From the NCBI GenBank assembly GCA_015178975.1, contig WHVD01000182.1, positions 92,425-156,424 on the forward strand: a stretch of 64,000 nt of DNA. The letters are read 5' to 3'. Under the pieces are notes generated by a model. It did not search any database. It was not told the origin of the DNA and was given only the letters and a program-made list of their open reading frames with translations. The stretch comes from Hysterangium stoloniferum. Taxonomy: Eukaryota; Basidiomycota; Agaricomycetes; Hysterangiales; Hysterangiaceae. The position numbers were made by a program, and so were the translations under genes. Each line of letters opens with the position of its first letter. Within the stretch, counting starts at the first letter, position 1. Shown piece after piece: positions 7,181-63,672 of this stretch.

Positions 7181-7415
7181 CGGAGTGTGTCGAGAAAAGG
7201 TGGGAGTCAGGAAAAGGACCGGAAAGTGAAGATGAAGAAGTACAGGATATGATGGAAAGTGCGGAGATTGCGGATGATACGGGAGTTGAAGCGGAAGGAG
7301 GGTTTGGGGTGTCAGAAACATTAAAATAGTTGCAAATATATTTGACTTGTATGATTTCAAAGAATGAGCGTGATATCGGAAGTATCGGAAACTGAACAGA
7401 AAGAAAATGGAAAGG

Positions 7416-13867: not shown

Positions 13868-13872
13868 GAAGG

Positions 13873-28891: not shown

Positions 28892-29032
28892 TGTGAAGAG
28901 CTGACCGTTCGATATATGAAGAATAATGTTTATTCAACTACTATTAGCAGGTATTGACCGTACAGTATAATACCGTAGATTACTAGACAAGCAGTACTAG
29001 TAAGAAGACACGCTATGTGTCACAAGAGCAAC
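28892..29032 (-). repeat. LTR A inserted in the Helitron, left part
   Basis: Begins TGTGAAGAGCTGACCG. The preceding GTTAG and the ATTAG after 40794 look like a TSD with one change. The copy stops after GAGCAAC, in the middle of the family palindrome, where R5 starts. The right part is 40522-40794; about 217 bp between them, compared with 50728-51371, are missing. Confidence 0.85.
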
Positions 29033-29337
29033 TGTAAAGGGTATGCATATATGCATAATTGGACTAAGGAATAATAGTTGGATTATAGTACTTTATTATT
29101 TATCTTTTATTTTCTTTCTTTACATTCTTTCTATATTTCAAGCATACCTTTATTTTGTAGTTCGAAGCTTTGTGTATACGTATGGGCGCTCTCGGCGCCA
29201 AAATGACAGACACTTTTTACCCAGCAGACACCACCTCGTAAATGACCCAGACGTCGAATAGCGAGAGGTGTCAAGGGTAACGTCTCAACTACCTATAAAG
29301 GTAGTGTTCTTTCGCATACTAACGTACTTTGGATACA
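29033..29337 (+). repeat. R5 5' LTR with 3' deletion
   Basis: Matches the 3' LTR from TGTAAAGGGTATGC to CTTTGGA, then jumps to the terminal ACA at the leader. About 340 bp are lost compared with 39878-40521. Confidence 0.88.
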
Positions 29338-29338
29338 G

Positions 29339-29356
29339 TGGTGATCCAAGCTGGAC
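29339..29356 (+). promoter_or_regulatory. R5 primer-binding site
   Basis: TGGTGATCCAAGCTGGAC, identical to the R1 site, one base after the LTR end. Complementary to an unidentified tRNA 3' end. Confidence 0.78.
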
Positions 29357-29414
29357 CGTTCTTTTCCTACGAAGAAAGATCTTATTATTGGACTACTAAA
29401 ACCCGAACACGCGA

Positions 29415-31796: not shown

Positions 31797-32471
31797 GGAG
31801 GGTGTTTATAATTACTATAATCTCAAATATTTACTAATAAAAGTCTTATTTTTACAAAACTCCATCTTTAAATAGTGATATCTATTCTGAAACAATTATA
31901 TCATCAAAAAAAAACCATCAGAAATAGTTCTCCATATTACATCTTATACAACCCATAGTTATTTAACAAATTCTATTGTATATAATTTCCTTCCTTTTAC
32001 AGATGTCTACTAATACTTTTATTAGTACTTTGTCTTTTAAAAGCTGTAATGTAGTTATTTCCTAGTAAAATATATGAGATGTCATTGGAAATTTTTCATC
32101 CTATGGCCTTCTTTATTAAGTGAAATTACCTATATATTCTGGGTATGTTGAATCAAGTAGAAATCTGTTCAGATTGACAGATCCATTCCAAAGTAATACA
32201 TATGTATTTAGAGGTGCCAATGATATACATATGCATGGAATGGACTATCTAAAGGTATCTACTTTTTAAAAGTATTAGTGTTTCAAACTACTAATTTTTT
32301 TTATTGTCTACTCGTGTCCAGAAAGATTCTTTAGTTTGTAATGTATGACAGAGTTTAAAACTTTTTGAAATTTTTAAAAACCAAATTATGTTTGAATCAC
32401 ATCCCAGATGTTTAAATGACCTTTAGAGTATATTAGAATTTGGTATACTTAATAGTTTTCAGATATCCTCC
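31797..32471. mobile_element. 675-bp MITE-like element, copy 2
   Basis: Collinear over its whole length with copy 1 at 4803-5476, differing by scattered substitutions. It starts GGAGGGTGTTTATAA, ends TATCCTCC, and is flanked by ATT at 31794-31796 and 32472-32474. Removing it plus one ATT restores the R5 frame after the zinc knuckle. No coding capacity. Confidence 0.82.
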
Positions 32472-35400
32472 ATTATGTCTCTATCAACAAATGCTCCGCA
32501 CAGGATATGGCGGAGGAAGCTGAGGAGCAAAGGTTATATGAAGCGGTTCATGGACTATCTATACAAGGACAAGTAAATAGCTCTGATGACGAATTGACTT
32601 TTGTTTCCATTTATGCACCCCATGTCGGAGACAAATTAGTAAGGGAGGAAAATTGAACGACTGGTGAAGCTCTTCCGTCTGAAGCTTATGTATCCATACT
32701 CGCCGCAGATTTCTTCGAAAAGGGAGACCGGCTGAGTGCTCATCGGCAGGACCTTGAAGGCCTGACTGAGAACTACTGTCAGACTGGAGATTCTCATGAA
32801 CAAATCAGTTCGAATTCGCTCTGTTCGCCTGGAGCTGATGTTGACACTTTCCTGTTTGATCCCGGGAACCCCCCCAATTTACTACCGTACGAGAACTCTG
32901 AGTGCAGGAGTGTAAGCTTGTCCCTGCGCAAGGAAAGTAAGAGGCCTCGAATCCAATACCCTCGTCCCAGTCGTCTGATTAAGGAGGATACTACGATCCT
33001 TTATCGAAAACGGGATCCTCCCAGTGGTTACTCTAGCATAGGAGTTGCAGCGCTCCATGTTTTCGGTCATGTAGGAACTCCCGATTCACCCGAACGCGTT
33101 AAAATTCGAATGGACATGGGAGCGGATCTTTCCCTTATATTGGAGGAATTCTACAAGGAGCTGCAGGGCATATATAAGTTGAAACAAGGACTCAAGTTAC
33201 ATCTAATCCAGCTCACGGGTAATGCTAAGGTTATCGGATATGTTAATATTCCTATTTACCTGGAGGACGACAGTGGAACGTTACTGAAGTTCGTGGCAGA
33301 AACTTATGTCGTTAGAGGAATGACGGTGCCAATTCTTTTAGGAGAAGACTTCCATATTAATTATGAAATTGGTACTCTAAGAAATCAGCCGTTGGGATCT
33401 AGACTTATTCTCCTGGGACGACAGGGTTTTATTCCAGCCAGTTCTTCTAAGGAACCTCAACCTTTGACCTTCACCGTCAATAAGGCCCCTTTCGGGAAGC
33501 ATGAGAAGGAGCAATCCAAACTCACCTCTCTCCCCGATAAAGGTGTGCATACTGAAAGAGTTGCGTGAGCCTTGGAGGATTGCACTATCGATCCAGAGTC
33601 AGCCAGACTAGTGCCTATTTTTGTTGAAGATCTAGAGGGCGATGAATGGATTGTTGAAGGAATTGTATTGCAAAACGAGGACGGTTCGATATTAGCCACA
33701 CCAATCACGGCAATTTCAAGGAATAGTGCGGCGGTACCTTTAGCCAATCCATCGCTAACCCCTAAGACTATCCGACGAGGGGAGACAATAGGGATAATTA
33801 ATGACCCCGCTCGTTGGGCTCACAAGCCCAGGTCACTCGAGGAGAAAGGTTTAATGGTAGCAGGCGTGACCAAGATCGCACACCTTATGGAAAGTCTCTC
33901 TCAACTTGAGGAGGACCGTCAAGTCACCTCAGAGAGGCCTAAGCCACCTGTTGAACCAGAGATTGCGGACGATTTCGAACCGCCTGGTCCTAAGACGGCT
34001 GCAGTGGCTGATAATGAGAAATTTGCCTCAGAGGATCTTCACAAGTTAGTCAATTTGGGACCAGATATACCAACAGAGGTCCTGCCACGTCTCAGATCAG
34101 TTTTGACTGAGAACATTAAGGCTTTCGGAGTCGACAGACGGTTAGGGCAAGTGGAATGTAGAGTCCCTGTCCCCTTGAAAGAGGGAGCCCAGCCCATATC
34201 CATGCCTATGTTCCCTTCGTCCCCTGCCAATAGGAGAGTTATAGATGAGCAAATGGATACCTGGTTCGAACAGGGTGTCATTGAGCCATCTAAAAGCCCC
34301 TGGGGAGTGCCAGCCTTTGTAGTATATCGCAATGGTAAACCGCGGGTGGTCATCGACTATCGGAAACTTAATCATCTCACTGTTCCAGACGAATTCCCTT
34401 TACCACGTCAATCGGAGATCATGCAGGCGCTGTCAGGGTCAAATGTTATTTCTTCTTTCGATGCGCTAGCCGGGTTTACTCAATTAGAAATGTTGGAGGA
34501 CGATAAGCCCAAAACAGCCTTTAGATCCCATAGAGGGCTGTGGCAATTTAAAAGGATGCCATTTGGGCTCAGAAATGGCCCCTCCACATTTCAGCGCGTC
34601 ATGCAAACAGTTTTAGCACCCTACTTGTGGATTTTTTGTTTAGTCTACATCGATGACATAGTCATATTCTCTAAGAACTGGGATGATCATTTGCTTCACC
34701 TGAATCAGGTGCTTGGCACTATCGCTTCGGCCGGTATCACTCTCTCTCCCAAGAAATGTTTTATCGGATAAAATTCAATATTGTTATTGGGTCATAAAGT
34801 ATCCAGGTTGGGTTTTTCAACCCACCAAGAAAAAGTTCATGCTATATTGGAACTGGCCCCACCCACTAAGGTTTCTGACCTACAACGGTTCCTTGGAATG
34901 GTCCTTTACTTTTCAGCGTATATACCATTCTATTCATGGATGGTGTCCCCTTTATTCTCGCTTCTAAAAAAGGGAACACCCTGGACGTGGACTGCTGAAC
35001 ATGTCCGAGCTTATGAGGATGTTAAAACCACATTAGGATCAGCTCCAGTGCTGGGACATCCAGTTGTGGGATGCCCTACTGATTGAATACGGACGCTTCG
35101 GATTTTGCCTTGGGTTGTTGCCTCCAACAAGTCCAGAAGATGGCTTTAGGAGACTTAGTGGACACTAAAATCTATGCCCAAGCCAAGTTGGCTTTTGACC
35201 GTGCACAGGATGTGCCATCCTTTGTTCATCGGTACAAAACCAAACAGCCCGAGATTGAGTGGTCGGATTCGTGGGGACCCACTTTTGAGGCGACCGAAGT
35301 TACTGTTGAACAAGTCATTGCATATTGGAGTCGCACACTGAAAAGTGCTGAGCGTAACTATTCTGCTACTGAACGGGAAGTGTTAGCAGCAAAGGAGAGA

Positions 35401-37377
35401 CTAGTCCACTTTCAACCTTTCATTGAAGGTGAACATGTTCTGCTCATTACGGACCATGCAGCTCTGCAATGGGCTAGATCTTACGAGAACACTAATCGTC
35501 GACTAGCCACATGGGGGGCGATATACGCTGCATTTCCAGGTCTCGAGATTTTGCATCAAGCAGGGAGAGTTCACAGCAACATGGATCCACTGTCCAGACT
35601 CCCTCGGGTACCAGCCTTCGTGAGCCCTATTAGAGATGACTTGCAGGCTATCACCTCGACCTCTCTGGACAGGAGTACTGAGGAAAAACTATGGAAGGAT
35701 GAACCTGCTAAGAAGGTGGTCTTCTCTACCATACTCGATTCTATGGAACCTTTCGGAGTAACTCAAAAGGTCCGACAGTCAGAATGGGATTCTCATAACG
35801 CAATAAGGAATGACCAGGAAGACAAGTCTGACTTCGCATTGCGTCATCCTCAGCTACTAATCAGCATCGAGGAGGGATATATAAAGAAATTTCTAGAGGG
35901 TTATTCAAAGGACCCCATTTTCAAGAATCTCTACGCGCTAGATACCCCTTCACCCAATGCGGTTGTTACTCCTTCTCACTACTTCGTGGGAGCAAACCGA
36001 CTCCTGTACTTTCGCAACTCGGACTGGAAAAGTCGAGTCTGTGTACCCAGAACTATGATTAACTCGATTTTAAGGTTGGTACATGATAACCCTTTTGAGG
36101 GAGCACACGCCGGAGGCCAGCGGTTGTTCAACCTGATGAAAGACCGGTTCTTTTGGCCAAGAATGCTACAAGATTGCGTGTCATGCGTGCATACCTGCGA
36201 CATCTGCCAAAAAACCAAAGTCTATCATACCGCTCATCAAGGAGCCCTCAGACCGGCTGACGTACCTTTTAGGCCATTCGAGGTAGTTTCTATGGACTTA
36301 ATCACTGGACTACTCGATTCAGGAAAGGATTCGTATTCCGCAGTCTTCGTCGCCGTTGATAAATTGACGTGTTACGCTATTACAATACCTACCTTTTCGA
36401 ACCTTACGGCTGAAGGATTCGCACAAATATTTGTCAAACAGGTGGCAAGCCCCTTCGGACTGCCCTCTCGAATAATCTGTGACCGGGATAAGAGATGGAC
36501 CTGCAGGTTTTGGCAGGAAGTCTGTAAGATCTATGGTACCACCCTTGCGGTATCTTCGGCTCATCATCCTCAAACGGATGGGCAAACGGAGAATATGAAT
36601 GCGACCATAGAACAGATGCTTCGAGCCTATTGTGCCTCTGCTAAAGAAAGCTGGTCCCAGTGGATTGAGGTAGTTGTTCACGCATACAACTCGACTGTTC
36701 ACAGTTCCACAACCTACACCCCAGCCTTCTTATTAATGGGATACCTTCCAAGAGGAATGTCTCGAGTCCTAGGAGGTGATGAACCCCTAGTTCCTAGAGA
36801 ACTATCAGACAGCCCTATGGCCGACCAATGGATCCTCGAGCTAGAAAATCATTGGCAGATGGCGCGGGATTCAATCGCTCGAGCCCAAGAGATTCAAGCA
36901 CGAGCGTATAACAAGAAGCAAAGACCTGTAGAAGATATCTCTGAGGGAGACTTTGTATTGGTGAACCCCCACTCCCTCGAACTGGTGGAAGTCAAGGGAA
37001 TGGGGAAGAAACTAATACAAAGACGGATTGGACCATTCGAGGTCCTTGAGAAATTGAACTCTCAAGTATTTAGGCTTAAGATCCCCCCGGAGTATCCGAT
37101 GCATCCAGTCATTAATCGGGATCATCTGCGGAAATATCAACCCTCTCCTTCCAAGCTAGGTCCAAGACCCCAACTTGAGAACCTAAGAGAGTTGAAATCA
37201 GATCATGAAGAATATGAAGTCGAAGCTATTGTTGGACATAGGAAACAGCGAAATCGTCTGCTATTTAGGGTGCACTGGAAAGGTTATGGACCCGAAGAGG
37301 ATTCGTGGTTAAGCAGCACTGACCTCAGAAATGCTCCAGCACTTCTGAGGGCGTACAAGGCGCTGTTCAACATTTAA
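32472..37377 (+). pseudogene. R5 pol: protease-RT-RNase H-integrase-chromodomain
   Basis: The first part has an in-frame TGA near 32655. Protease is at 32918-33568 (IRMDMGADLS, Asp-Met-Gly for Asp-Ser-Gly; ILLGEDF). RT (33572-34771) has VVIDYRKLN at 259-267, Asp at 297 and an intact YIDD at 359-362. A TAA at 34769 and a frameshift near 35080 follow. The last open part, 764 codons from 35083, has RNase H Asp4/Glu99/Asp124 and the integrase finger His334, His342, Cys372, Cys375. The integrase core is Asp405, Asp467, Glu503 (DD35E), and the chromodomain spans about 710-748 (LLFRVHWKGYGPEEDSWLSS). The enzyme cleaves Gag-Pol, makes cDNA and inserts it; the chromodomain is a targeting reader. RT, RNase H and integrase residues are intact; the breaks are few. 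Confidence 0.93.
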
Positions 37378-37734
37378 CGGGATATATGCGCTCAAGGAAT
37401 TATCTATTCTATCATTTATTCCATCTCTTTCGTAACTTCCTTTCAGAAATATCTCAGTTATTCAGTGAGCCATCTCATTGGCTTTTATTCTCTTTCATTT
37501 TTCTATCCCTCCGGTCGATTGGGACAACCACTAATTGGCAGCGGACACATTTGCCCAAAACCTGGCCACAATTAATGAATTTTATTTAACGACCAACCGA
37601 GCGGAGTTTCAATTCAATATATATAAAAAAGTACACGTAAATTCACATAAATTTTCTTTATCTTTCACACCACGTCCTTCACCTATCTACAGCCCTTCCC
37701 TCTATCTTCAACTTCACCACTTTATCGTGCTATA

Positions 37735-39852
37735 ATGCTCCCTTTCCAACAAACAAGCAAGTCCTCCCTAAGTTCAAAAAGGTCCCGTGAGCCCCAACAG
37801 CCAGTACATCCACGACCGGTGGGGGATTCATCACCCGCATGCCTCGTACAGACAATGTCGAGAGCAATCGGGGTACCCAAGAATCAACCCCCCTGTCGAC
37901 TTTCTCCTTTGGTGATGAGCCGGGGGGAAATACCGGTATGGATTGGAGCAAGCCGTTAGGCCCCTCCGTCAGACCATCATCTGAGGAAGTCGCTGCTATC
38001 ATGTGGAAGCAGGAAATGTTTATGGAAGAACACAATGCAAGGAGGCTCACCCACAAAAGAGAAAGGCATGCTGAGTATAGAAGTCAACAGGAGGCGAGGG
38101 GAGCAAGAGAAGGAGTCCCCTCCAAGCGGCAGCGGCGTGAGTACAGAGCACAATTCGGAAACAGAGCTTCCGCGCCGATCCTTCCCCCCCGGGAGAGAAA
38201 TGGGCCAACTTCATGGAGACCAATGATAGTGAGGGTGGGACGCCTTGCATTAGGACGACGGGAACCAAGAGCTGGAAGGAGAAGGAGGGTACCATCTTTT
38301 ATGACTGGGAACTACTTCGATGCATTAAGTTGCAACGAATAGTTCTTACCCGAGGGGACGGTCAAACATTGCCCCAGCGAGAAAAAGAATACCGTAGGGG
38401 ACCAATTGATTTTTCCTCAGATGAGGATGAGGAGGAAGACGAGAACAGGAATGGTGTGTATAGCATCCGATCTCTGGGAGAGGATTGCCATGAAGGGTTC
38501 CTTCTCCCGTCTAAAGTTCACTTCATAACCAGCGACCCCAACCAAAGACAAACGCGGAGACCGTCATCCCGAGTATGGAGGGGTCACCGCCCTAGTCAGC
38601 AGTCACTGGAATGCGAACCTTCCATGATTCTGGTCCCACATCTTTTGCCAATGTCGAGGCCCTTCCCATCATTCACCCTACACACACTCCATCAGCCCCA
38701 ATTCTAACGCCTCATTTACCTCCCTCTCCAAAAGCTGTACCAGTCCCAACCTCACTTAGGATGTCGAGGCCCCCTCCCATCCTTCACCCGGCACACACTC
38801 CCTCAGCCCAACGCGAACCTTCCCTGATTCCAGCCCCACGCCTTTCACCAAGGTCGAGGCCCCTTCCCGTCCTTCTTCCGGCACGCACTCCCCCAGCCCC
38901 GATTCTGGCACCTTGTCTCTCTCCCTCCCCGAAAGCTATACCGGTACCGACCCAACTTCCGCCGTCACCGGGTATCCCTCCCGACTCTCCGTATTCATAT
39001 TGCATGTCCTTGGGTTGCCCTATCCAGGACCTTCCACCAGAGCGAATGGATGTCAATTTGGACCCTCCTACACCGGACGTCATCGATCCCATGGCAAGCA
39101 GAAAGGCGAAGGAGATGCAGAAAGCCACCACTCCTCTCCGAGAACAATCCCCTATTCCCGTCCTCGACAGCCCACTTCCCCTCACTGAGCCCGTATCCAC
39201 AACTTTCTGGATGCGAGTAGCTGTCAACTACCCTTCCAAACAGTTTCCTGTCAGAAGGGTGCTATCACAGCTCGTGCCGGTACTTCAGCAACTGGTCCTT
39301 CAAGGGAGCCTTAAGGGTTGTTGCGGTCTGGCTCCGTTGTCGGAGATAATGGAGGATTTTTATCTCTCCTTCGAGGATCTCGCAGAGGGGAAGAACTTTG
39401 CACGAGCAGCACAGGAGATTAAACTCTCTATGTTCCGGCACATCATAGTGGAGCTTCACCGTCTGCCCCCAGACTCAGCGAATGTCCTCTCTATTGCTGG
39501 CTTAGTAGATTTACTCGAGGCCCTCGTCCTGACACCTCCCACAGAGACCACCATGCAGCCACATGTTCCTGCCCCACTGCCTGCATCTTCGTTTCCCCTC
39601 CCCAATGCTCCTCTTCTCGCGCGGATTTCCGCTCCACCGGTTAGTGTCCGTGCAGTCATTCGTTGCAGAGAGAAAGCCTACAGATGATGGGCCGACTCCT
39701 TGTACAGGAATTCTAGTGATTTGGCTCGGGCGAGAATAGCCGAATCTTTCAGAGTAAAAAGGGAACAATGGGGAAACATCATTTTGGACCTTGGGGGATC
39801 CTCACAGGAAGCTTGGGGCGGTGTCCCAGATGCTCTTCGACACCTAGTATAG
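37735..39852 (+). pseudogene. R5 accessory ORF downstream of pol (unknown family)
   Basis: Sense strand, 358 bp after the pol stop and ending 25 bp before the 3' LTR. Pieces in shifting frames are 37735-37959, 37839-38342, 38213-38707 and 38611-39687. A TGA at 39685-39687 (probably CGA) is followed in the same frame by about 55 codons to TAG at 39850-39852, so the intact protein was near 700 residues. Its parts are a basic/Glu-rich helix (about 38000-38100), an acidic block GPIDFSSDEDEEED, Pro-rich tandem repeats (38640-38990, SPKA-PVPT type), and a helical C-terminus (39205-39850). No signal peptide or transmembrane helix is obvious, so nothing supports an envelope protein despite the position. 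R4 has a homologue, so it is a lineage trait. Function unknown. Confidence 0.7.
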
Positions 39853-39877
39853 CACATCCCTTCAAACTGTGGGGCAC

Positions 39878-40521
39878 TGTAAAGGGTATGCATATATGCA
39901 TAATTGGACTAAGGAATAATAGTTGGATTATAGTACTTTATTATTTATCTTTTATTTTCTTTCTTTACATTCTTTCTATATTTCGAGCATACCTTTATTT
40001 TGTAGTTCAAAGCTTTGTGTATACGTATGGGCGCTCTGGGCGCCAAAACGACAGACACTTTTTACCCAGCAGACACCACCTCGTAAACGACCCAGACGTC
40101 GAATAGCGAGAGGTGTCAAGGGTAGCGTCTCAACTACCTATAAAGGTAGTGTTCTCTCGCATACTAACGTACTTTGGACTCGAACCGCAAAGGTCGAGTT
40201 TCACTCTAAGGTCTTTGCGCTAGTCAACATTATAGTCGACTCGCGCTATTATCTCTTTACTCTAGATATTCAGCTTCGCGTTGATTATCTATTTTACATC
40301 TAGCTACAAGTTGTACCGTGAAGGTCAACTCTTTCATTCTTTCATTCTAGCCGTCAAGAGCAACTGTACAGTTGCTCTTGTGACGCATAGCGTGTCTTCT
40401 TACTAGTACTGCTTGTCTAGTAATCTACGGTATTGTACTGTACGGTTAATACCTGCTAATAGTAGTTGAATAAACACTATTCTTCATATATCGAACGGTC
40501 AAAATCTATCGACTCTTCACA
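39878..40521 (+). repeat. R5 3' LTR (family A, 644 bp)
   Basis: TGTAAAGGGTATGC to CGACTCTTCACA; preceded by the purine-rich GTGGGGCAC. Same length as the solo copy at 50728-51371. Confidence 0.94.
40355..40380. repeat. 26-nt perfect palindrome in LTR A
   Basis: The half-site CAAGAGCAACTGT is followed at once by its complement. It is conserved in the solo copy at about 50870-50895 and is the point at which the Helitron LTR A copy is broken by R5. Confidence 0.9.
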
Positions 40522-53257: not shown

Positions 53258-53894
53258 TGTGAAGAGTCGATAGATTCTGACCGCTCGATGTATGAGGAAT
53301 AGTATTTATTCAACTACTATTATTAAGTATTGACCATCCTGTACAATACTGTAGATTACTAGACTGATAGTACTAGTAAAAGACGCACTACATGTCACAA
53401 GAGCAAATGTACAGTTGCTCATGACGATAATGACCAGAGAAAAGAAGAGTTGACCTTTACGGTACAACTTGTAGCTAGAAGTAAGAAAGATAATCAGCGA
53501 AAGACTGAATATCAAAGGTAGAGATATAGCAGTACGAATCGACTAGAGTGTCGATGAGCACAAAGACTTGAGAGTGGGACTCGACCTTCGCGGTTCGAGT
53601 CCAAAGATTACTAGTACGCAAGAAGTTGCTACCTTTATAAGTAGCTGAGACGTTACCCTTGACACCTCTCGCTATTCGATGTCTGGGTTGTTATGAGGTG
53701 GTGTCTGCTGAAAAAGTGTCTGTCTTTTGGTGCCGAGAGCGCCCATAGGTATACACAAGACTTCGAACTAAGAAATACAGGTATGCTCGAAAGATATAGA
53801 GAATTAAAGAAAAGGAATAAAAGCTAGATAATAAAGTACTATAATATGCATATCATTCCACTGTCCAATCATGCATATATGCATACCCTTCACA
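53258..53894 (-). repeat. solo LTR A in the satellite (637 bp)
   Basis: TGTGAAGAGTCGATAG to GCATACCCTTCACA; flanks AACGG (53253-53257) and GACGG (53895-53899), one mismatch. Confidence 0.93.
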
Positions 53895-53899
53895 GACGG

Positions 53900-54660
53900 T
53901 CACAGAGGCGTGCGCGACTGTCACAAAGGCGCGCGACTGTCACAAAGGCGCGCGACTGTCACAAAGGCGCGCGACTGTCACAAAGGCGCGCGACTGTCAC
54001 AAAGGCGCGTGACTGTCACAAAGGCGCGTGACTGTCACAAAGGCGCGCGACTGTCACAAAGGCGCGCGACTGTCACAAAGGCGCGCGACTGTCACAAAGG
54101 CGCGCGACTGTCACAAAGGCGCGCGACTGTCACAAAGGCGCGCGACTGTCACAAAGGCGCGCGACTGTCACAAAGGCGCGCGACTGTCACAAAGGCGCGC
54201 GACTGTCACAAAGGCGCGCGACTGTCACAAAGGCGCGTGACTGTCACAAAGGCGCGCGACTGTCACAAAGGCGCGCGACTGTCACAAAGGCGCGCGACTG
54301 TCACAAAGGCGCGCGACTGTCACAAAGGCGCGCGACTGTCACAAAGGCGCGCGACTGTCACAAAGGCGCGCGACTGTCACAAAGGCGCGCGACTGTCACA
54401 AAGGCGCGCGACTGTCACAAAGGCGCGCGACTGTCACAAAGGCGCGCGACTGTCACAAAGGCGCGCGACTGTCACAAAGGCGCGCGACTGTCACAAAGGC
54501 GCGTGACTGTCACAAAGGCGCGTGACTGTCACAAAGGCGCGTGACTGTCACAAAGGCGCGCGACTGTCACAAAGGCGCGCGACTGTCACAAAGGCGCGCG
54601 ACTGTCACAAAGGCGCGCGACTGTCACAAAGGCGCATGATGGTCACACAGGTGCGCGACT
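53900..54660. repeat. 19-bp GC-rich satellite, about 38 copies
   Basis: Tandem CTGTCACAAAGGCGCGCGA. Several units read GCGCGTGA, the change expected from CpG decay. Edge units are more diverged. All frames are open only because the unit has no stop. Confidence 0.96.
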
Positions 54661-56045
54661 GTCACAATGTGTGACAGTCACAAGACGCGAAGGGTGTCAT
54701 GTGCACGCACAGGTGCGAGAGCATTATATAATCATATATGCTACTACAGCAAAAACTAGAAATTCCCTGGAATATTCCAGTGGCTTCCAAAGGAATAGTA
54801 GATAGTAGATACTAATAATAGATAGAATATTGTAGAATATTCTATAAGATTCCAGTAAGTTCTATTATGCCAAGAATATTCTATAGTGTCTTAGAAGTAG
54901 TTAGAACCTTCCACAATGCTCTAGAAAATTCTAGAAAATTCTAAATGACATCATTCCTTCCAGAATGACATCATTCAATCTTCTAGAATCTTCTAAATGT
55001 CTCAGACCAAAATGTATATAAGGAGCTCAGCTCCAGCCTTGAATAATAAAACAATCAATCGTATCATCACATCAACCCACCACATCTGTGTGTGTCACTG
55101 CAGCAAGCAGGCTACTCCACCCCAATCTGGGCAGTTGGACATCTCATTCCACCTCTATCTGAGCTGTTGGAAACCCTTGCCACCTCTATCAGAGTTGTTG
55201 GCCCAATCAGATCCCTTGTCACCTCAATCTGAGCTGTTGACTGATCTGCTGTTCCCCTGTCACCTCAATCTGAGTTGTTGACTTTTGTTCCCCCTTGCCA
55301 CTTCTTAATTGAATAGTTGGGTATCTTTTATATATTATTTCCACTTCAGTTAGAGTTGTTGGTTATCAACTAATAATATATAAATAATCTCATACTATAG
55401 TCATCTCTTAATTGAGTACTGAGTATTAGTTTTCCTTACATTGTTATTTGTAGTTTAAGACTTCAGTCACCTCTAGTTGAGTAATTTGACTGTTTATTGC
55501 ATTACAAATAATCCTTGTTCTATTGTTCATTGATTGTGAATCAGTAAAGCATATTCACATAAACAAATACTGAGAATATCCTTGCAAGATCCTAAGACTA
55601 CATTAATATCACAGTAGACCTTGTAGGTTAGTGTAAATAAAGCATATATTAACCAAATAGTGTTTTATTCTATATCTAATCTTTTGACCTGTTTATTAAT
55701 ATTTTTACTGTTTGATAAATAGTATAAAATATATATAAACTAGCTAGCATTGAAGTTAAATCTAGCTTCGGAATCAGTAAATTCCTATTCTTATTTTAGT
55801 TGTTATCACAGAAAAAGAACAAGCTTGCACAAGCAGCTCTCAAAACCTTCTTTGCAGAGCTGGGTGCATATATTCAAGTAAACTCTTGACTTCAGGGGTT
55901 CTAAGTCTATTTAGGCTGCCACTGATTAATATCAAATACTTAAATTATTTTACCTTGCAGTGAATTGAGTATTTGCACATTTTGATAGAGCATTGGACTC
56001 CTTTTTCAGAAAATAGTATTAAAGTAAGGCTAATACATCACAATC
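54661..56045 (+). other. possible LTR-like region with imperfect repeats
   Basis: ATGTATATAAGGAGCTCAGC at 55011-55030 followed by AATAATAAAAC resembles the TATA region of the inverted-repeat arms near 43010. From 55115 to 55490 an imperfect 45-50 bp unit recurs, built on CACCTCAATCTGAGCTGTTG. 55806-55890 can encode KLAQAALKTFFAELGAYIQ but no family is recognised. No clear ends or TSD, so the element type is open. Confidence 0.4.
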
Positions 56046-56864
56046 ATGCATCAAATCACCTCTGGCCAGCTAAATAATGCTGTCCAAGCCACCCATTACA
56101 TTAACAGTACCAATCAATATAATGTGTCACCTAGCACAGTCAGGAGGACATTGAAACAGCATGGTTTCAAAGCAGTAGTCAAGGCAAAAAGGCCCTTGTT
56201 GACAGCTCAACATAGAAAGGCCAGGTTAAGCTTTGCCCTCAAATACCAACACTGGACAGTGGATGACTGGAAGAGGGTATTGTGGACTGATGAGACCAAA
56301 ATCAATAGGATTGGCTCATATGGACATCAATATGTGTGGAAGAAAGCTGGAGAACCACATTCTGATAGGATAACCCAACCTACTGTCAAGCATGGAGGTG
56401 GAAATATCATCATCTGGGACTGTATGGGTTGGAATGGAGTGGGAAGGCTTGCAGAGATTGAAGGATGGATGGATTATGCACAATATGTGGAGATCCTGGA
56501 GCAGAACTTGTCCCAGAGCATTGGAGATTTGGAGATTCCAAAAGATAAGGCCATTTTCGAGCAAGATAATGATCCAAAACATACATCTAAGATGGCACAA
56601 GAATGGTTTACTAAAAAAAAGATTCATGTATTAGACTGGCCAGCACAGTCTCCTGATATAAATCCCATAGAGCATCTTTGGAATCACCTGAAGAAACAGC
56701 TACAAAAATATTTCTCACCACCAAAGGGAGTTTGGGAGTTATGGGAGAGGGTGGAAGTGGAATGACCAAAGATTGAGCCTCAGGAGTGTCAGAAACTGAT
56801 AGAAGGTATGCCCAGAAGACTTGATGCTGTAATAAAGGCTAAGGGAGGCCATCATATAAAGTAA
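56046..56864 (+). pseudogene. Tc1-like transposase, catalytic part (DD34E)
   Basis: Second helix-turn-helix tail (VSPSTVRRTLKQHGFKA), then WTDETKINRIG (first Asp), VKHGGGNIIIWDCM, EQDNDPKHTSK (second Asp) and SPDINPIEHLWNHLKKQL (Glu, 34 residues after the second Asp by the family rule). TGA at 56763-56765 interrupts the C-terminus, which continues in frame to TAA at 56862-56864 (MPRRLDAVIKAKGG). The catalytic triad is intact, but the gene is split from its N-terminus and has a premature stop. It acts in the nucleus on TA targets. The ATG at 56046 is fortuitous. Confidence 0.92.
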
Positions 56865-57699: not shown

Positions 57700-58532
57700 T
57701 GTTAGGATACACACTCAGGCCGGGTTTCCGGAGAAACCCGCGGGATATCCGGTAGGACTTGGCTTCAGCTTATAGGCTGCACCCTCGCTAGATCGTATTG
57801 TCCAATTTCAGACAGGCGGACGGGAATCCCGGGGAGTCCAGGCGGGGGTTCGTGGGTCGTGAGTCGTAGGTCGTGAGTCGTGAGTCGTAGGTCGTGAGTC
57901 GTGAATCGAGATAGTCGAGAGAGATAGATGCGCCGGAGCCCGTGGGCTCCGACTAGTGCGAGCGGTCTGATAAGAGTAGGGTTTAGAGAGGAAAATGTAT
58001 TTAGATTACTGGGGGGAATCTAAGCTAATTTTCTGACTGGATTGTATGTACAACATCTGCCAGTTTATATAGACCGTGGAATGCATGACATACCGAATCC
58101 AGTAATAATGAGACGAAACGAGCAAAACATAAAACGGGAATAGTAAACACCAAATTGGTGTTAGGAACGGGACGGAACGGAGCGGAGTCCGAATCGTGAC
58201 AAAGCATAACCCATAACGGGAAACAGAGCGGGAGCGGAGTCCTAAATTGTGACAGGTCATTTGACTAAAACGGGAACGGGGCTCGATTAGAGCGGTGACG
58301 GGATTCTAAGCGGGTTCCGGTGACTGATGCGTGGGACGAAGACGGACATAGACAGAGATGGGGTCCGGGGGAAGTCTGGTGACTGATATGTGTCTTAATG
58401 AGGTCGAACGTAACGAGTCTTGACGTAACGGAGTCCGGTGGGAAATCCTATAAACAGACGATTGGTGCTTGTAGCGCGTGGGGGCGTACGAGTTAGTGCC
58501 CAGAGTCCGGCGGGATTTGTCCGGTCGTAACA
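57700..58532 (-). repeat. R8 3' LTR (family C, 833 bp)
   Basis: Plus strand TGTTAGGATACACAC to GGTCGTAACA. Longer than the solo copy at 5943-6758, in part because its GTCGTGAG array (about 57850-57906) has more units. Confidence 0.9.
57850..57906. repeat. 8-bp GTCGTGAG array in LTR C
   Basis: About seven units of GTCGTGAG/GTCGTAGG; the solo LTR C at 6095-6137 has fewer. Confidence 0.8.
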
Positions 58533-58550
58533 GTATCCTCCCTTTATGCC
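58533..58550 (-). promoter_or_regulatory. R8 polypurine tract
   Basis: Minus strand AAAGGGAGGATAC directly upstream of the 3' LTR start TGTTACGACC. It gives the sense direction of the element. Confidence 0.82.
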
Positions 58551-58682
58551 GAAGTCCCAAAGAGGCTCTAGACCTAAATAAGGTTCTTGTCGGCTACGCG
58601 CATGTGTCAAAAGTCATGTCGGTTACACGTATGTGTCAAAGAGTCATGTGATCTGGAAGGTAAGGTTCAAACGCGACGAGCC

Positions 58683-58690
58683 TATATAAA
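58683..58690 (+). promoter_or_regulatory. TATA box of the R8 antisense gene
   Basis: TATATAAA, 60 bp before the ATG at 58743, on the strand opposite to pol; R2 has its counterpart at 2927. Confidence 0.65.
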
Positions 58691-58742
58691 AAATTGAAAA
58701 AATAGAAATTTCTTCTTCTTTATTACCCCCATCTTCGTCACT

Positions 58743-59717
58743 ATGGGACCAAAACCAACACCACGCAAGCCAATGCCGACAGCAGGGCCCTCCACGGGCA
58801 CTCCGTATTGGGCGCCGTGGACGGCGGCCCAATTGTTGGCGTGGCGAGAAGAGCAGCGCCAGCTTCGTGAAGCAGCAGAGAGAGAGGCAAGGGAGGCTGA
58901 GGAGGCCCTGGACAGAGAGTACCAGGAAGCATTGGCCACGGAGGAAGAGGCCGCAAAGGAGAGGGAACGTGAGGCAGAGGAGGCTGCGCGAGTGGCCGCG
59001 GAGAACGCCCGGGTGGCTGCGGAGAAAGCCCGGTTGGCCGCGGAGAGGGCCGCCATTGTTGCGGGAAAAGTAAGTCCCAAATTCACTTGTCGACTTTTAC
59101 TGACTTGTGATTTTCAGCGCAAAGTGACAGAGGTGGAGTCGGAGTCCGAGGGGGAGCCAGAGAGCCCCCAAAAGGTAGGTCTCATGTCCATGGAATACCC
59201 GCGGAGACTGATCAATTCAACAGAAGGCAAGGAAGGCGGCGCCAGTCCGTCGTGGAACGAGCCGCGGTGTTCCGGTTGCAACGACCGGAACACGGAATGC
59301 AACCGAAAGGCCGGCCGGGGGCCGGGATGTTATCAATGCGTGCACCTCAAGGCGAGGTGCTCACTTGTGCACGAGCAGGCCACGGGATCCGGGGCGCGAG
59401 ACATAAGCGGGACGGACGGGTTGTCCGGGTTGGACGAGGTCCTTGGACGGATCGCCGAGGGCATCGAGGCCCAAAACGAGTTGCTCCGGAAGAGCAACAA
59501 GGTCCAAATTGTGGTGGCAAAGGAGCTGTCCGGACTCCGTGAGGAGTTTTGGAAGTTCCTGGCGGAGTATGGCGGCTATGTCTTTGAAGAGCCGCAAGTC
59601 GGGAGTTCCGAGGATGCCGGATCGGATGAGGACGGGGTTGCCGCGGAGGTCGCGGAGCTCCCTGAGGAGGTAGCTGAGGCAGAGGGGAAAAAACATAGTC
59701 CCATAAATGTAGACTGA
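58743..59717 (+). CDS. R8 antisense Zn2Cys6/coiled-coil protein
   Basis: ATG at 58743; 324 codons unspliced, convergent with pol (202 bp between the two stop codons). Residues 1-30 are Pro-rich. Residues 30-110 are a Glu/Ala/Arg coiled coil. In the unspliced frame Cys 176, 179, 186, 196, 199 and 206 give C-x2-C-x6-C-x9-C-x2-C-x6-C, within the fungal Zn2Cys6 pattern. A second helix follows (about 225-280), then an acidic tail. Intron 1 (59070-59117, 48 nt, phase 0, GTAAGT, CTGAC branch, TTTTCAG) sits where R2 has its first intron. A second intron is conserved in R2 but its 49-nt form would here shift the frame. There is no helicase or transposase motif. Zn2Cys6 proteins usually bind DNA as dimers; role here is inference. 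A captured host gene is the alternative, but both elements have it in the same place. Confidence 0.78.
   Translation: MGPKPTPRKPMPTAGPSTGTPYWAPWTAAQLLAWREEQRQLREAAEREAREAEEALDREYQEALATEEEAAKEREREAEEAARVAAENARVAAEKARLAAERAAIVAGKVSPKFTCRLLLTCDFQRKVTEVESESEGEPESPQKVGLMSMEYPRRLINSTEGKEGGASPSWNEPRCSGCNDRNTECNRKAGRGPGCYQCVHLKARCSLVHEQATGSGARDISGTDGLSGLDEVLGRIAEGIEAQNELLRKSNKVQIVVAKELSGLREEFWKFLAEYGGYVFEEPQVGSSEDAGSDEDGVAAEVAELPEEVAEAEGKKHSPINVD
59070..59117 (+). other. intron 1 of the antisense gene
   Basis: 48 nt, in frame and stop-free, so the reading frame is open with or without splicing. Position and phase agree with the R2 intron at 3316-4444. Confidence 0.7.
59175..59223 (+). other. possible intron 2 of the antisense gene
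   Basis: GTAGGT to AACAG, 49 nt. R2 has the equivalent 48-nt intron (4499-4546), which keeps frame. Here splicing would lose the Cys cluster; an AG at 59230-59231 (57 nt) or retention would keep it. Confidence 0.45.
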
Positions 59718-59919
59718 AAAGTAATATAGAAATAAAAGTAATTGAACATAAAAGTAAAGCGTGAAAAACATAAAAATAAAAGTCAAAGCCAAAGTCCGCG
59801 GAGAGTCTGCTTAAAGACTTGACAAGACATGTCAGAACCTGTAAAAGCAAAGAGAGACATAGGGCGACAGGGAATAGTGAAAATGAGTCCAAACGTAACA
59901 CGGGGTCCACGGAGTGCGG

Positions 59920-62900
59920 TCAGAGAGACGATAATGGTCCAGGTTTGAGTGGGTAAGCTGTATGAAAGTCAGTAACGATTTCCGTGGCATTACCGAGTTC
60001 CGTGGCCAAAATCCATGAGGTTTCTTCATCGGTGCCCTCGTAACCCACCCACTTGACCAAGTAAAGCAGTTTACAAGTGCGTCGACGCTTGTCAATTTTT
60101 GAATCTAAAATCTGCGAGATTTCAAACTCGGGTTCTCCGTCAATGACGACAGGAGGAGGCGGAGATTGCACGTGATCCGGGATAGTGTTAGCAGTACAAG
60201 GTTCTAGCATAGAGACATGAAATACCGGGTGTACCGCGCGCATGCTATCCAGAAGCCGTAGAGTCCAAGAAACTGAACCTACTTGTGCGATAATTTCAAA
60301 GGGACCTAAATATTTTTCAGCAAGCTTCTTTGACGGACGGGTAGTCCGGAAGAATTGAGCTTTGACATAAACACGGTCGCCAATCTTGAAGTTTGGTGGC
60401 GGGATCCGGTGTTTGTCCGCTGAATGTTGGTATTGCTCTTGGGCGGACAATATTGCAGTCCGGAGTTCCTCGTGGAGCTCGTGGAGGTCCGTGGTAAACT
60501 CTTGAGCACGGACAGAGGCGAGATTTCGTTCTGGATGTACTGTAATGTTTGGATTATATCCTTTATTTGCAAAGAACGGGGAAACGCCAGTAGTGGCCGA
60601 GGGTGCATTGTTGTAAGCAAACTCTGCAAGTGGTAACAAGGTTTTCCAATTGTCCTGTTGATAGTTGCAATATACGCGGAGGTATTGTTCCAATGTCTGG
60701 TTGACGCGTTCGGTTTGTCCGTCACCTTCCGGGTGATGTCCGGACGTGAAATGTAATGTCATGTCCAAGGATTTTCCGAGGGATCTAAAGAAGTGAGACA
60801 CGAACTCTGATCCTCGATCGGAAGTCACGTGGGATGGAACTCCGTGCTTGGAAAATACGTGGATAATGAAAAGTTCCGCTAACTGCACGGACGTAATTGT
60901 ATCATAAGTAGGGATGAATATACCTTGTTTTGAGAATTCGTCAACAACGACTAGAATAGCGGAAAAGCCTTCGGAATCCGGTAGGTGTTGAATGAAATCC
61001 ATAGATATAGAATTCCACGGGTGTTCCGGTACCGGGAGTTGTTTCAAAAGGCCGTATGGCTTGTGTCGCTGAGATTTCGAGCAGGGACAAGTAGTGCAAG
61101 ATTTACAATAGTGCTTAACGAATCCACGGAGTCCGGGCCAAGTATATTCTCTTCTTATTAATGATAGAGTTTTGTTGTACCCGCAATGTCCTGAGAGTGG
61201 ATGATCATGTTTGTATTGAAGGATCCTGAGGCGGAGGCCGTCGGAGTCCGGTACATAGATCCTATCGTCAAGTCTAATGAAACCATGTTGATCAAGAGAC
61301 CACCGAGGTTGATCAGGGTCCACAGGATTGTCTAGATGAGCTTTAGTAATGGGGTCTAGGGGAATTGCCGATAGAATATCCTGATGTAACTTCTCGATAT
61401 CCATAATGATAATTCCACGGACAATGGGATTGACGAGGAAAGTTGCGCGGACCGATGCGGTAAGTTGTTGATTCGTGAAAATAGGTTTCAGGTTGTGCGG
61501 ATTTACCGTTGCATAGTCGTTGCTCCCCTCTTTAGGATAGACGTCCCATTGTCTAGTTAAAGCGTCGGGTTTGCCGCCGAGATGGCCGGGTCGAAAACGG
61601 ATAATCATGTTGAAGGCGGAGAGATATTCAGACCAGCGGGCCTGCCGACGGGTCAAGAGTTTTGTGGTAGAAAAGTATTCCAGGTTTTTGTGATCTGTTA
61701 CAACGTCAATAGGAGCTCCTGAACCTTCCAAATAGTGTCGCCACGCTTTGAAAGCTGAAAAAATTGCCAGAAGTTCTTTATCATGAACGTCGTAGTTGAG
61801 CTCTGCTCCGGTAAAAGTCCGGGACAGAAAAGCCACGGGGTGGACTTCTCCGTCGGAGTCCTGGATAGAGAGAATGGCTCCAAGTGCATAGTCGGAGGCG
61901 TCCGTTTCAACAATGAGCGGGAAGTCCGGTTTCCAATGCGACAGAATAGGAGCTGTGGAAAAAGAATTTTTTAAAAGATTGAAAGCTTTTTGACACTTAT
62001 CGTTAAAGTTCCACGGAGTACCCTTACGCGTAAGACGGGTAAGGGGTATTGTGATGTCGGAATATCCACGGATAAAACGTCTATAAAAATTGGCAAAGCC
62101 GAGGAAGGATTGTATATCTTTAACTTTTCGGGGTTCGGGCCAATCTTTGATGACTTGCACTTTAGTTTCGTCCATGCGGAGTCCATCGGGTCCCATCATG
62201 AAACCTAGGTATTCCACGGAGTCCGTGTCAAAAGTACATTTTTTACCATTTGCGAATAAACCATGTTGTCTGAGCCTCCGGAGAACCTCACGGACTTGTT
62301 TGTCGTGTTCCGCGGGATTCTCGGAGTAGATAAGAATGTCGTCCAAGTAAACAATGACGCATACATCGAGCATGTCGGAGAAAATGTCGTTGATAAAACG
62401 CTGAAAAACAGACGGGGCATTAGTGAGTCCAAAAGGGATGACCAACCACTCGAAGGCCCCATAGCGGGTTCTAAAAGTGGTTTTCCATTCGTCACCCGCG
62501 GCAATCCGGACCAAATGATAGGCGTGCTTGAGATCTATTTTGGTGTAAATCCGGGCATTCCGCGGAGCATCGAGCAGGTCAGATATAAGTGGGAGTGGAT
62601 ATTTGTCCTTTTTGGTGACAGCATTGAGTCCTCTAAAATCAACACATAGTCTAAGGGATCCATCCTTTTTTCTGACAAACAAAACAGGTGCTCCAAAAGG
62701 AGACTTCGAGGGTCGAATAAAACCTATGGACAAATGTTCATCCAGGAAATCATGGATTGCGGATAGTTCCGTGGACGAAAGCGGGTAAATATGTCCTAGG
62801 GGTGGCTGGGCGCCATCTTCAAGATCGATTTTTAAGTCGTATTCTCTGTGAGGCGGAAGCCGGTCAGCTTTTCGCTTGCTAAAAACATCCGCGAAGTCAT

Positions 62901-63114
62901 GGTATTTCTCCGGGACGCCTTCTAGGTCAGCAGCTTGCTCAGATTCGGATACTGGGGTTGAGAAATGTCCAGTTGCTTCATCAATTTTTAAGTTGATAGT
63001 GAACGCCTGGGAACCATCCATTTTTGAAGCCCTAATAAAAGCTGCAGCATTAATCAGAGAAATGGACGGAGGTGCCGTGGGTTCCGGGGAAGCTATAGGT
63101 GCCGTAGGGATCAC
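59920..63114 (-). CDS. R8 pol: RT, RNase H, integrase, chromodomain
   Basis: 1064 open codons, numbered from the first. RT: VDFRGLN 158-164, IDLKHAY 193-199, YLDD 256-259. RNase H: Asp405, Glu447, Asp474. Integrase finger: His638, His643, Cys673, Cys676; core Asp706, Asp766, Glu802 (DD35E). Chromodomain about 998-1040 (LLYLVKWVGYEGTDEETSW), directly at the C-terminus. All catalytic residues expected for the family are present. The frame begins without ATG because it continues the protease frame, from which it is separated by a shift near 63111-63180; in R3 these are one frame. The enzyme copies element RNA and inserts the DNA into chromatin read by the chromodomain. It could be active if the shift is tolerated or is a sequence error. 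Confidence 0.95.
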   Translation of the reverse strand: MIPTAPIASPEPTAPPSISLINAAAFIRASKMDGSQAFTINLKIDEATGHFSTPVSESEQAADLEGVPEKYHDFADVFSKRKADRLPPHREYDLKIDLEDGAQPPLGHIYPLSSTELSAIHDFLDEHLSIGFIRPSKSPFGAPVLFVRKKDGSLRLCVDFRGLNAVTKKDKYPLPLISDLLDAPRNARIYTKIDLKHAYHLVRIAAGDEWKTTFRTRYGAFEWLVIPFGLTNAPSVFQRFINDIFSDMLDVCVIVYLDDILIYSENPAEHDKQVREVLRRLRQHGLFANGKKCTFDTDSVEYLGFMMGPDGLRMDETKVQVIKDWPEPRKVKDIQSFLGFANFYRRFIRGYSDITIPLTRLTRKGTPWNFNDKCQKAFNLLKNSFSTAPILSHWKPDFPLIVETDASDYALGAILSIQDSDGEVHPVAFLSRTFTGAELNYDVHDKELLAIFSAFKAWRHYLEGSGAPIDVVTDHKNLEYFSTTKLLTRRQARWSEYLSAFNMIIRFRPGHLGGKPDALTRQWDVYPKEGSNDYATVNPHNLKPIFTNQQLTASVRATFLVNPIVRGIIIMDIEKLHQDILSAIPLDPITKAHLDNPVDPDQPRWSLDQHGFIRLDDRIYVPDSDGLRLRILQYKHDHPLSGHCGYNKTLSLIRREYTWPGLRGFVKHYCKSCTTCPCSKSQRHKPYGLLKQLPVPEHPWNSISMDFIQHLPDSEGFSAILVVVDEFSKQGIFIPTYDTITSVQLAELFIIHVFSKHGVPSHVTSDRGSEFVSHFFRSLGKSLDMTLHFTSGHHPEGDGQTERVNQTLEQYLRVYCNYQQDNWKTLLPLAEFAYNNAPSATTGVSPFFANKGYNPNITVHPERNLASVRAQEFTTDLHELHEELRTAILSAQEQYQHSADKHRIPPPNFKIGDRVYVKAQFFRTTRPSKKLAEKYLGPFEIIAQVGSVSWTLRLLDSMRAVHPVFHVSMLEPCTANTIPDHVQSPPPPVVIDGEPEFEISQILDSKIDKRRRTCKLLYLVKWVGYEGTDEETSWILATELGNATEIVTDFHTAYPLKPGPLSSL

Positions 63115-63614
63115 AGGAGTCCTCGAGACTGCAGGTGCCGGAAGGCCATGGGTGCCGTGGAGGCCGAGACAGGCGCAGTTTCCTCGGTCGCCGCGGGAGT
63201 CCGGAAAGTTATACTGTTAGCTATCCAGTCAATCAACGGATTGTAGCGGGTAAGCCAGTTATGTCCTAGAACCACCGAGCAACTTGAGTCTAACTGGGTC
63301 ACATAGAAAGTGACCAATTGAGATGTTCCACAAGGGAAACTGATGGGTAAATCACAAGCTTGGGTAACAACCGAATTACTTGTGCCATCAAAGAGGCGGA
63401 GACCGACGGGATTTATCGAATAAGTTGACAAAGAATTTTTTTGCGTGAATTTTGTATCTAAAAAACAATGAGTCAAGCCGGAATCTATGAGAGCTGAAAA
63501 AACGAAATTTCGGAAGCATATTAGACATAAGTTTAACGAAAAATGAATTAGAATGTGAAGAGAGCGGATGCGTTGAGGCGAGTGAACTCTTGAATGCGCG
63601 GAGAGGCAACGCAA
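63111..63614 (-). CDS. R8 aspartic protease domain
   Basis: Catalytic Asp-Ser-Gly at residues 44-46 of the open frame (VFSALIDSGLTHCFLD), then [39 protein letters not shown] and TRYNPLIDW, the retropepsin pattern of chromoviruses. The frame ends TGA at 63111-63113, overlapping the next frame. Cleaves Gag and Gag-Pol. R2 and R3 have Asp-Ser-Ser here. Confidence 0.88.
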   Translation of the reverse strand: MRCLSAHSRVHSPQRIRSLHILIHFSLNLCLICFRNFVFSALIDSGLTHCFLDTKFTQKNSLSTYSINPVGLRLFDGTSNSVVTQACDLPISFPCGTSQLVTFYVTQLDSSCSVVLGHNWLTRYNPLIDWIANSITFRTPAATEETAPVSASTAPMAFRHLQSRGLL

Positions 63615-63672
63615 CCCTAACCCGCGCGGAGTCCGCGGGGTTGCTTACTCTTTTTTCGAATCGGCAGCCGGT

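Follow-up and report, generated by a model that had tools for sequence, protein, structure and literature searches.

A three-exon antisense gene with a Zn2Cys6-like cluster is carried by chromodomain Ty3/gypsy elements of Hysterangium stoloniferum and appears to be exchanged between element lineages

Introduction

Chromodomain-bearing Ty3/gypsy elements of the ectomycorrhizal fungus Hysterangium stoloniferum carry, antisense to pol, an element-encoded gene that is spliced-looking, with three exons and two predicted spliceosomal introns. The gene occurs in two element families, designated here R8 and R2, encodes a putative nuclear regulator with a Zn2Cys6-like cysteine cluster, and, among R8-type elements, appears to have been exchanged between lineages. 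Both families are represented in the window, the 64,000-nucleotide stretch of DNA analysed here, and further copies of the gene were sought in the 111-Mb H. stoloniferum assembly that contains it.

Organization of the R8 Element

R8 lies on the minus strand of the window and is a chromovirus by its Pfam domains, which occur in order, the chromodomain scoring 27.5 bits against a cut-off of 25.1. The features of the element and its antisense gene are as follows.

57700-58532, minus strand: 3' LTR of R8, with TG...CA ends read directly from the sequence
58533-58550, minus strand: polypurine tract, purine-rich on the minus strand and adjoining the LTR
58588-58649, plus strand: 29-bp tandem repeat of about two units, lying in the leader ahead of the TATA box (Tandem Repeats Finder)
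58681-58691, plus strand: TATA-box-like sequence of the antisense gene, TATATAAA at 58683
58743-59069, plus strand: antisense exon 1, encoding a charged coiled-coil-like region (alignment of fetched copies)
59070-59117, plus strand: antisense intron 1, GTAAGT...CAG, 48 nt, its splice sites kept in fetched copies
59118-59174, plus strand: antisense exon 2, 57 nt in 18 of the 20 fetched copies
59175-59223, plus strand: antisense intron 2, GTAGGT...CAG, 49 nt, with position and phase as in R2-type copies
59224-59717, plus strand: antisense exon 3, encoding a basic stretch, the Zn2Cys6-like cluster, a C-terminal helix-like region and an acidic tail
59268-59360, plus strand: six cysteines of the R8 window copy, C-x2-C-x6-C-x9-C-x2-C-x6-C
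59729-59736, plus strand: AATAAA-like predicted poly(A) signal 3' of the antisense stop, read directly
59920-63216, minus strand: pol frame encoding reverse transcriptase (RT), RNaseH, integrase and chromodomain (Pfam RVT_1, RT_RNaseH, Integrase_H2C2, rve and Chromo, all above cut-off)
63111-63644, minus strand: protease frame (Pfam RVP_2)

The antisense gene starts at 58743 and its stop codon occupies 59715-59717; some 200 nt separate it from the stop of pol at 59920, such that the two genes converge tail-to-tail. The frames do not overlap (59717 versus 59920), which rules out overlap with pol as the source of selection on the antisense gene. LTR-like direct repeats surround this same layout in 12 of the 20 R8-type loci fetched from the assembly, several of which end at contig ends.

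Further mobile-element features are present in the window. Another chromodomain element occupies 29031-40175 on the plus strand, with pol at 33569-37377 and LTR-like repeats near 29031 and 39876; between its pol and 3' LTR lie several sense-strand frames (37735-39687), preceded by a TATA-like stretch near 37617, and these frames may together make up an additional gene, spliced and in the same orientation as pol. A Tc1/mariner-like transposase frame with DDE_3 and Tc3-type HTH domains is found at 56034-56765.

Three Exons and Two Introns

The structure of the R8-type gene was derived from an alignment of 20 fetched copies (L009-L028) with the window copy. Exon 1 measures 300-327 nt and is a multiple of three in all 20 fetched copies, one of which (L027) has lost the antisense ATG. 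It is followed by an intron of 48-72 nt running from GTAAGT (GTAGGT in L024) to CAG, by exon 2, whose length departs from 57 nt in L012 (56 nt) and L018 (55 nt), and by a second intron of 47-50 nt that likewise ends in CAG; intron lengths vary freely among the fetched copies. Spliced in this way, intact copies yield products of 294-298 residues in R8-type and 347-350 residues in R2-type elements. When the same intact copies are read unspliced, 15 of the 17 run into a stop near codons 119-136 and the remaining two (L049, L051) at codons 283-284. In the scoring that gave these 17, L023 was taken as non-intact only because its slice ended before the stop; the alignment shows its TGA. Three of the 20 aligned R8-type copies are intact.

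This structure revises the first-pass annotation of the window, which had described a 324-codon frame opposite to pol containing one 48-nt intron. The frame is indeed open at 58743-59717, between the pol stop and the polypurine tract and LTR, but it is an accident of a single copy. The window copy lacks 7 nt of exon 3 near 59256 that are present in most of the 20 aligned copies, with the result that its spliced reading is frameshifted while its unspliced reading stays open (49-7=42); since the 7-nt deletion offsets the retained 49-nt intron 2, the 324-codon frame was rejected as a real product. The 48-nt intron at 59070-59117 was correctly placed, as its conserved splice sites attest, and the second intron (59175-59223, 49 nt) had been overlooked. 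The proposed TATA box also held, being kept in all of the aligned leaders except that of L027.

The Gene in the R2 Family

The same annotation had placed an equivalent gene, with its introns, cysteines and TATA position conserved, at 2983-7329 in R2. The order of parts, introns, cysteines and TATA position are as described, although the copy in the window is broken.

2983-3315, plus strand: R2 antisense exon 1, with three in-frame TGA codons in the window copy
3316-4444, plus strand: R2 intron 1, enlarged by an LTR-like insert from about 3348
4445-4498, plus strand: R2 exon 2
4499-4546, plus strand: R2 intron 2
4547-7329, plus strand: R2 exon 3, with six cysteines at 4598-4693 and two inserts (about 4801-5480 and about 5731-7183)

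Besides the three TGA codons, the insert in intron 1 and the two inserts in exon 3, the window copy carries a 1-nt frameshift past the cysteines. Intact forms are found elsewhere in the genome, in 8 of the 19 R2-type copies fetched (L030-L048), a sample that represents the top of one search. Long tandem arrays of 19-bp and 22-bp repeats occur in the window at 53760-54700 and 13117-13890, and the 22-bp array overlaps the second R2-type LTR region.

Intron positions and phases are identical in R8 and R2, and in both the residues GK precede intron 1 and exon 3 begins with a basic stretch; exon 2 measures 54 nt in R2 versus 57 nt in R8. A TATA-like sequence (TATAAAA) is located at 2927 in R2, at a distance from the ATG similar to that in R8. 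Between the families, the proteins encoded by exons 2 and 3 are only 29-30% identical, compared with an identity of 79% between the RT of the window's R2 and that of R8. The simplest reading of the sequences is that the gene had a common origin before the R8/R2 split and has since diverged faster than pol.

Copy Number and Linkage to Pol

Searches of the assembly identified at least 278 places matching the gene, comprising 128 R8-type rows (exon-3 or full-length rows from the listed part of 178 matches, exon-1-only rows being left out) and 150 R2-type matches (those scored out of 871 first-look candidates). Several lines of evidence indicate that the gene is part of the element, as had been proposed, and is widespread among members of both families. 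Firstly, all 20 of the R8-type loci fetched, which were picked by their match to the gene and not by pol, carry a chromodomain pol on the other strand, in tail-to-tail arrangement with the antisense gene. Secondly, in 17 of 20 R2-type loci (L029-L048) the flanking 1.5 kb contains a chromodomain on the strand opposite to the gene, the three exceptions being the window copy itself, L030 and L035. Thirdly, 77 of the 128 R8-type rows could be paired with a scored chromodomain match, all 77 in antisense orientation and separated by 195-423 nt (median 214); partners were sought among the 150 scored of 3144 chromodomain candidates, and the 51 unpaired rows are no evidence of absence.

Approached from the side of pol, three of three loci fetched from the 73 chromodomain matches with no listed partner carry the gene, internally deleted in one of them (L050), and thus the gene is present beside at least 80 of the 150 scored chromodomain matches (77 listed partners plus the three fetched). 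In addition, all 40 scored matches (of 1557 candidates) in a search with the junction span both the gene and the end of pol, a search whose scoring favours full-length matches. Seven copies were sampled from 17 rows with a 1304-aa pol frame, and the three-exon gene is intact in six of them; exon 3 was already known to be open in four of the seven, such that the sample was not blind. The seventh is L050 (G000:C2:325300-326900), which retains the 1304-aa pol frame and in which an in-frame deletion has removed both introns and all six cysteines, leaving a frame of 122 residues. In a pattern search, the junction of this deletion occurs once in the genome with no mismatch.

The gene could, as an alternative, have been acquired from the host not long ago and be travelling with the element as a passenger, and the spliceosomal introns do suggest an origin as a nuclear gene at some time. 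This reading is highly unlikely, however, as the introns are common to two families and every fetched R8-type locus is linked to pol, and as no relative from another organism was returned from the protein collection, within the reach of a search by shared 5-residue words. In that search, one run of which scored the best 8000 candidates, the only protein returned was H. stoloniferum BU17DRAFT_80596, a result from which absence elsewhere does not follow. The single public protein (P0001) is a gene model without the first three cysteines, and this annotated form probably misses real exons. The reading of a stand-alone host gene was likewise rejected, as no such gene was found among the fetched R8-type and R2-type loci, which are linked to pol in the proportions given above.

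Purifying Selection

Mean pairwise dN/dS in frame is 0.23 for R8-type genes (11 of 20 copies) and 0.23 for R2-type genes (11 of 19 copies), as calculated with our own Nei-Gojobori script; most copies with frame-breaking indels were excluded and stop codons were passed over, slightly lowering the value. The other two frames of the same alignments give 1.26 and 1.36 (R8-type) and 1.62 and 0.94 (R2-type). Within the gene, dN/dS is lowest across the cysteines (0.15 for codons 109-178), being 0.22 before them and 0.26-0.27 after, and the value for the whole gene is near that of the pol domains in the same 11 R8-type copies (0.30). Mean dS, in the same R8-type copies, is about 0.7 in the gene versus 0.20 in pol. 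Together these sequence comparisons indicate that the antisense gene is under purifying selection and conserved as a protein.

These results bear upon two alternatives in which the protein itself has little or no importance. The first, a chance open frame, draws on the 324-codon frame of the window copy, which is in part a product of chance; with selection acting in frame and introns conserved between copies, this explanation is rejected, and its probability is close to nil. According to the second, the antisense RNA matters, through interference or the formation of double-stranded RNA, and the protein matters less or not at all. The convergent layout would suit such a role, and roles of this kind are discussed for antisense transcripts in the available portion of PMC7264820, but the gene stops short of the pol stop by the roughly 200 nt already noted, and a dN/dS of 0.23, an exon 1 held to multiples of three beside introns of free length, and 17 intact proteins make this second alternative very improbable.

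The Predicted Protein

The N-terminal half of the protein is long, charged and, by eye, coiled-coil-like, in agreement with the coiled coil originally noted. A basic stretch (KKARK or KKPKVK) precedes six cysteines, after which follow a region that is helix-like by eye and an acidic tail, the last 45 residues carrying a net charge of -10 in L022 and -13 in L033. All 17 intact copies display the cysteine spacing C-x2-C-x6-C-x9/10-C-x2-C-x6-C.

Fungal Zn2Cys6 clusters have the spacing C-x2-C-x6-C-x5-12-C-x2-C-x6-8-C, typically with a run of basic residues between the second and third cysteines. The claim that the protein contains such a cluster thus stands as regards the number and spacing of the cysteines, but with the Pfam model Zn_clus (PF00172), whose cut-off is 21 bits, an R8-type copy (L023) scores 8.1 bits and an R2-type copy (L033) has no match. 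The basic run is likewise absent, most copies having NDRNTE or SIRNMT in its place (by eye), with one Arg each. A profile search of the PDB returned the Zn2Cys6 regulator PPR1 (1pyi) as the fifth of five matches (E 3.9), over approximately the cysteine columns, and its best match (E 0.046) was an unrelated-looking initiation factor. Because the spacing is present while the Pfam model does not accept it and the basic run is absent, the cluster is labelled Zn2Cys6-like. The cluster suggests nucleic-acid binding, and the combination of coiled-coil-like region, basic stretch, six cysteines and acidic tail fits a predicted nuclear regulator.

The Leader and CpG Decay

The leader between the polypurine tract and the ATG is well conserved and contains, in addition to the TATA box, the 29-bp tandem repeat. 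As scored with a tolerant regular expression, two units of the repeat are present in 16 of 21 leaders (that of the window included), one unit in L010, L017 and L022, and none in L024 and L027, the leaders of these copies having been replaced or rearranged. Sequences resembling CATGTG or TATGTG, and TCAAA..AGTCA, are found within every unit. The conjunction of TATA box, tandem repeat and conservation makes it likely that the antisense gene has its own promoter. A scan of the LTR and leader for CGG-type binding sites gave no support: of 64 spacing tests, two fell below p 0.02 in R8, the lowest at 0.003, while R2 had none.

A further possibility is that the six cysteines bind element RNA or cDNA, the protein acting as a structural component or nucleic-acid chaperone in the manner of a second nucleocapsid. 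The protein is cysteine-rich, charged and element-encoded, as such a role would have it, but the spacing of its cysteines is not that of a CCHC motif, its basic stretch is of nuclear type, and the introns and promoter-like leader set the gene apart from gag-pol; we regard the chaperone role as improbable.

Evidence of cytosine decay is found in the same elements. With L022 as reference, change of CpG to TpG or CpA exceeds other C/G to T/A change in 19 of 20 rows (those of the window and of 18 fetched copies, but not of L015), and in 10 of the 20 rows amounts to 0.24-0.34 versus 0.07-0.13 at other C/G positions (0.34 versus 0.12 in L013); resting on a single reference copy, the comparison mixes decay with differences between gene versions. 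This CpG decay is a sign of probable host cytosine methylation of the elements in H. stoloniferum.

An Island of Divergence and the Apparent Exchange of Gene Versions

Segment identities to the window were compiled for every R8-type copy but L015 and L019, 18 of the 20 in total. In three of them, L024, L025 and L026, identity to the window is 70-77% in exons 1 and 3 and 84-97% in the other segments, L024 having no LTR match and a leader that matches in part only. In sliding comparisons of L022 with L025 and L026 the borders of the divergent region fall no farther than some 60 nt from the ATG and roughly 100 nt past the stop, a low value at -120 reflecting a gap in L022. Transversions are not produced by CpG decay, and at fourfold sites they number 22 of 110 in the gene versus 9 of 360 in pol for L022 and L025 (Fisher p 7e-9); L026, L014 and L016 show a comparable excess, L011 a weaker one (p 0.03) and L023 none (p 0.54).

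In a tree of the gene from 11 R8-type copies, L024, L025 and L026 form a clade (support 100/100, branch length 0.22). By pol, L025 joins the L022 group and L026 joins L011, and the gene clade is rejected by the pol data (p-AU 3.7e-8) and by RT and RNaseH alone (10 copies; p-AU 1.7e-10), though not by the integrase and chromodomain half alone (11 copies; p-AU 0.18), all for a clade that was named after the identity table had been seen, such that these p-values are not blind. The high level of fourfold transversions, together with rejection of the gene clade by pol, disfavours simple fast evolution as the source of the divergence. As pol data reject the clade, the R8-type gene appears to have been exchanged between element lineages, and the plainest reading is recombination that has placed old gene versions on different R8-type backbones.

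The failure of the integrase and chromodomain half to reject the gene clade means that these parts could travel together, and this agrees with an alternative role for the protein as an accessory to integration or nuclear import, joining the pre-integration complex and aiding nuclear entry or site choice beside the integrase chromodomain. The gene adjoins the integrase end, its product has a basic stretch and a coiled-coil-like region, and a nuclear role is among those discussed for plant antisense genes in the portion of PMC7264820 available. Set against this, whole pol and RT with RNaseH do reject the clade, and a separate antisense transcript would be an odd route to a packaged protein; the integration role is accordingly judged possible but unlikely.

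The case for exchange is made for R8-type elements only, as R2-type elements, in a sample from the top of one search, show a weak contrast, with pooled transversions of 0.029 for the gene versus 0.014 for the chromodomain. Exchange is hinted at there too, in that exon 1 of otherwise similar R2-type copies contains one of two alternative coiled-coil modules (L031, L039, L040 and L048 versus L033, L041, L046 and L047). In several R8-type copies (L011-L014, L016, L017, L027 and L028) divergence in the LTR and between the genes likewise exceeds, for the most part, that in pol, and pol may therefore have been homogenised as well.

Proposed Function

Taken together, the above is best explained by an element-encoded nuclear regulator, the product of an accessory gene in a chromodomain Ty3/gypsy element, and we consider this reading only just probable. 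Under the proposed mechanism the N-terminal coiled coil would allow the protein to dimerise, the basic stretch before the cysteines would direct nuclear entry, the six cysteines would bind nucleic acid, and the acidic tail would alter transcription or silencing of its own element family. The CpG decay of older copies, as would be expected under host methylation, makes a role as activator or anti-silencer seem somewhat likelier than one as repressor, though a repressor fits as well.

The exchange of old versions would be in keeping with a protein whose specificity, be it for element DNA or for a host factor, pays when it is different. In an extended and more tentative form of this idea, which we hold to be rather unlikely, the gene is a self-recognition cassette: old versions of differing specificity are swapped between near-identical backbones and decide which elements are activated, protected from silencing or repressed. 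Temperate phages, which exchange immunity regions, offer a comparison. The natural series of alternative gene versions on similar backbones makes the function of the gene directly testable, and were such specificity true, retrotransposons would have exchangeable regulatory cassettes.

Comparison with Known Systems

When the layout of R8 was first noticed, no described chromovirus with it was known to the annotator; it nonetheless has precedents, in that the plant elements Grande, RIRE2 and Retand and the fungal element Boty have antisense genes in the interval from pol to the 3' LTR, according to the text available of PMC7264820, which describes antisense accessory genes of LTR elements mainly in plants. 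The gene of R8 and R2 is antisense between pol and the 3' LTR, present in most scored copies and conserved as a protein, and in position, orientation, presence in most copies and conservation it corresponds to the genes classed as aORF-3R, namely maize Grande gene23, rice RIRE2 and Silene Retand ORF4 (PMC7264820, in part). For Grande, an own promoter and a nuclear protein are reported for the antisense gene (PMC7264820, same portion), and in Retand an antisense TRP28 ORF, probably able to bind DNA, is present in 97% of clusters (PMC11963269, as excerpted). Retand is a plant element and not a chromovirus, whereas R8 and R2 are fungal and have a chromodomain pol. The plant aORF-3R genes further differ from the R8/R2 gene in that the latter has two introns, a cluster of six cysteines and, in R8-type elements, versions apparently exchanged between lineages.

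VANDAL elements of Arabidopsis are not LTR elements, and HBZ of HTLV-1 is a protein of the bZIP type. The VANC proteins of VANDAL elements provide a candidate for how the R8/R2 protein might work: they are element-encoded, anti-silencing and sequence-specific, and relatives act on different targets (PMC5735166, in the part available). HBZ is an antisense nuclear protein of a retroelement (PMC11963269, as excerpted), and its antisense promoter is in the 3' LTR (PMC7264820, in part), whereas the promoter-like leader of R8 and R2 lies inside the element.

A search of the open-licence literature returned no description of a Zn2Cys6-like antisense gene, or of an antisense gene in a basidiomycete element, and the accessible text of two surveys of fungal LTR elements mentions added chromodomains or dUTPase and does not contain the word "antisense" (PMC3248453, PMC2864245). 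Among fungal elements, the Boty-like elements of Botrytis cinerea are likewise gypsy elements with an antisense extra gene (PMC7264820, in part), named brtn by Zhao et al. (2011; cited in the available portion of PMC8365987). The host of Boty is an ascomycete and H. stoloniferum a basidiomycete, and the two are likened here by description only. With the fungal Zn2Cys6 regulators (PF00172) the R8/R2 protein shares the spacing of its cysteines, while falling below the Pfam cut-off and being devoid of the basic run. Therefore, though the layout is a known one, its contents, a Zn2Cys6-like gene, and its behaviour as a cassette appear to be new, and the R8 and R2 elements provide a fungal example of it, matched at no fewer than 278 places, in which many copies are intact, the introns are conserved and the protein has a six-cysteine cluster.
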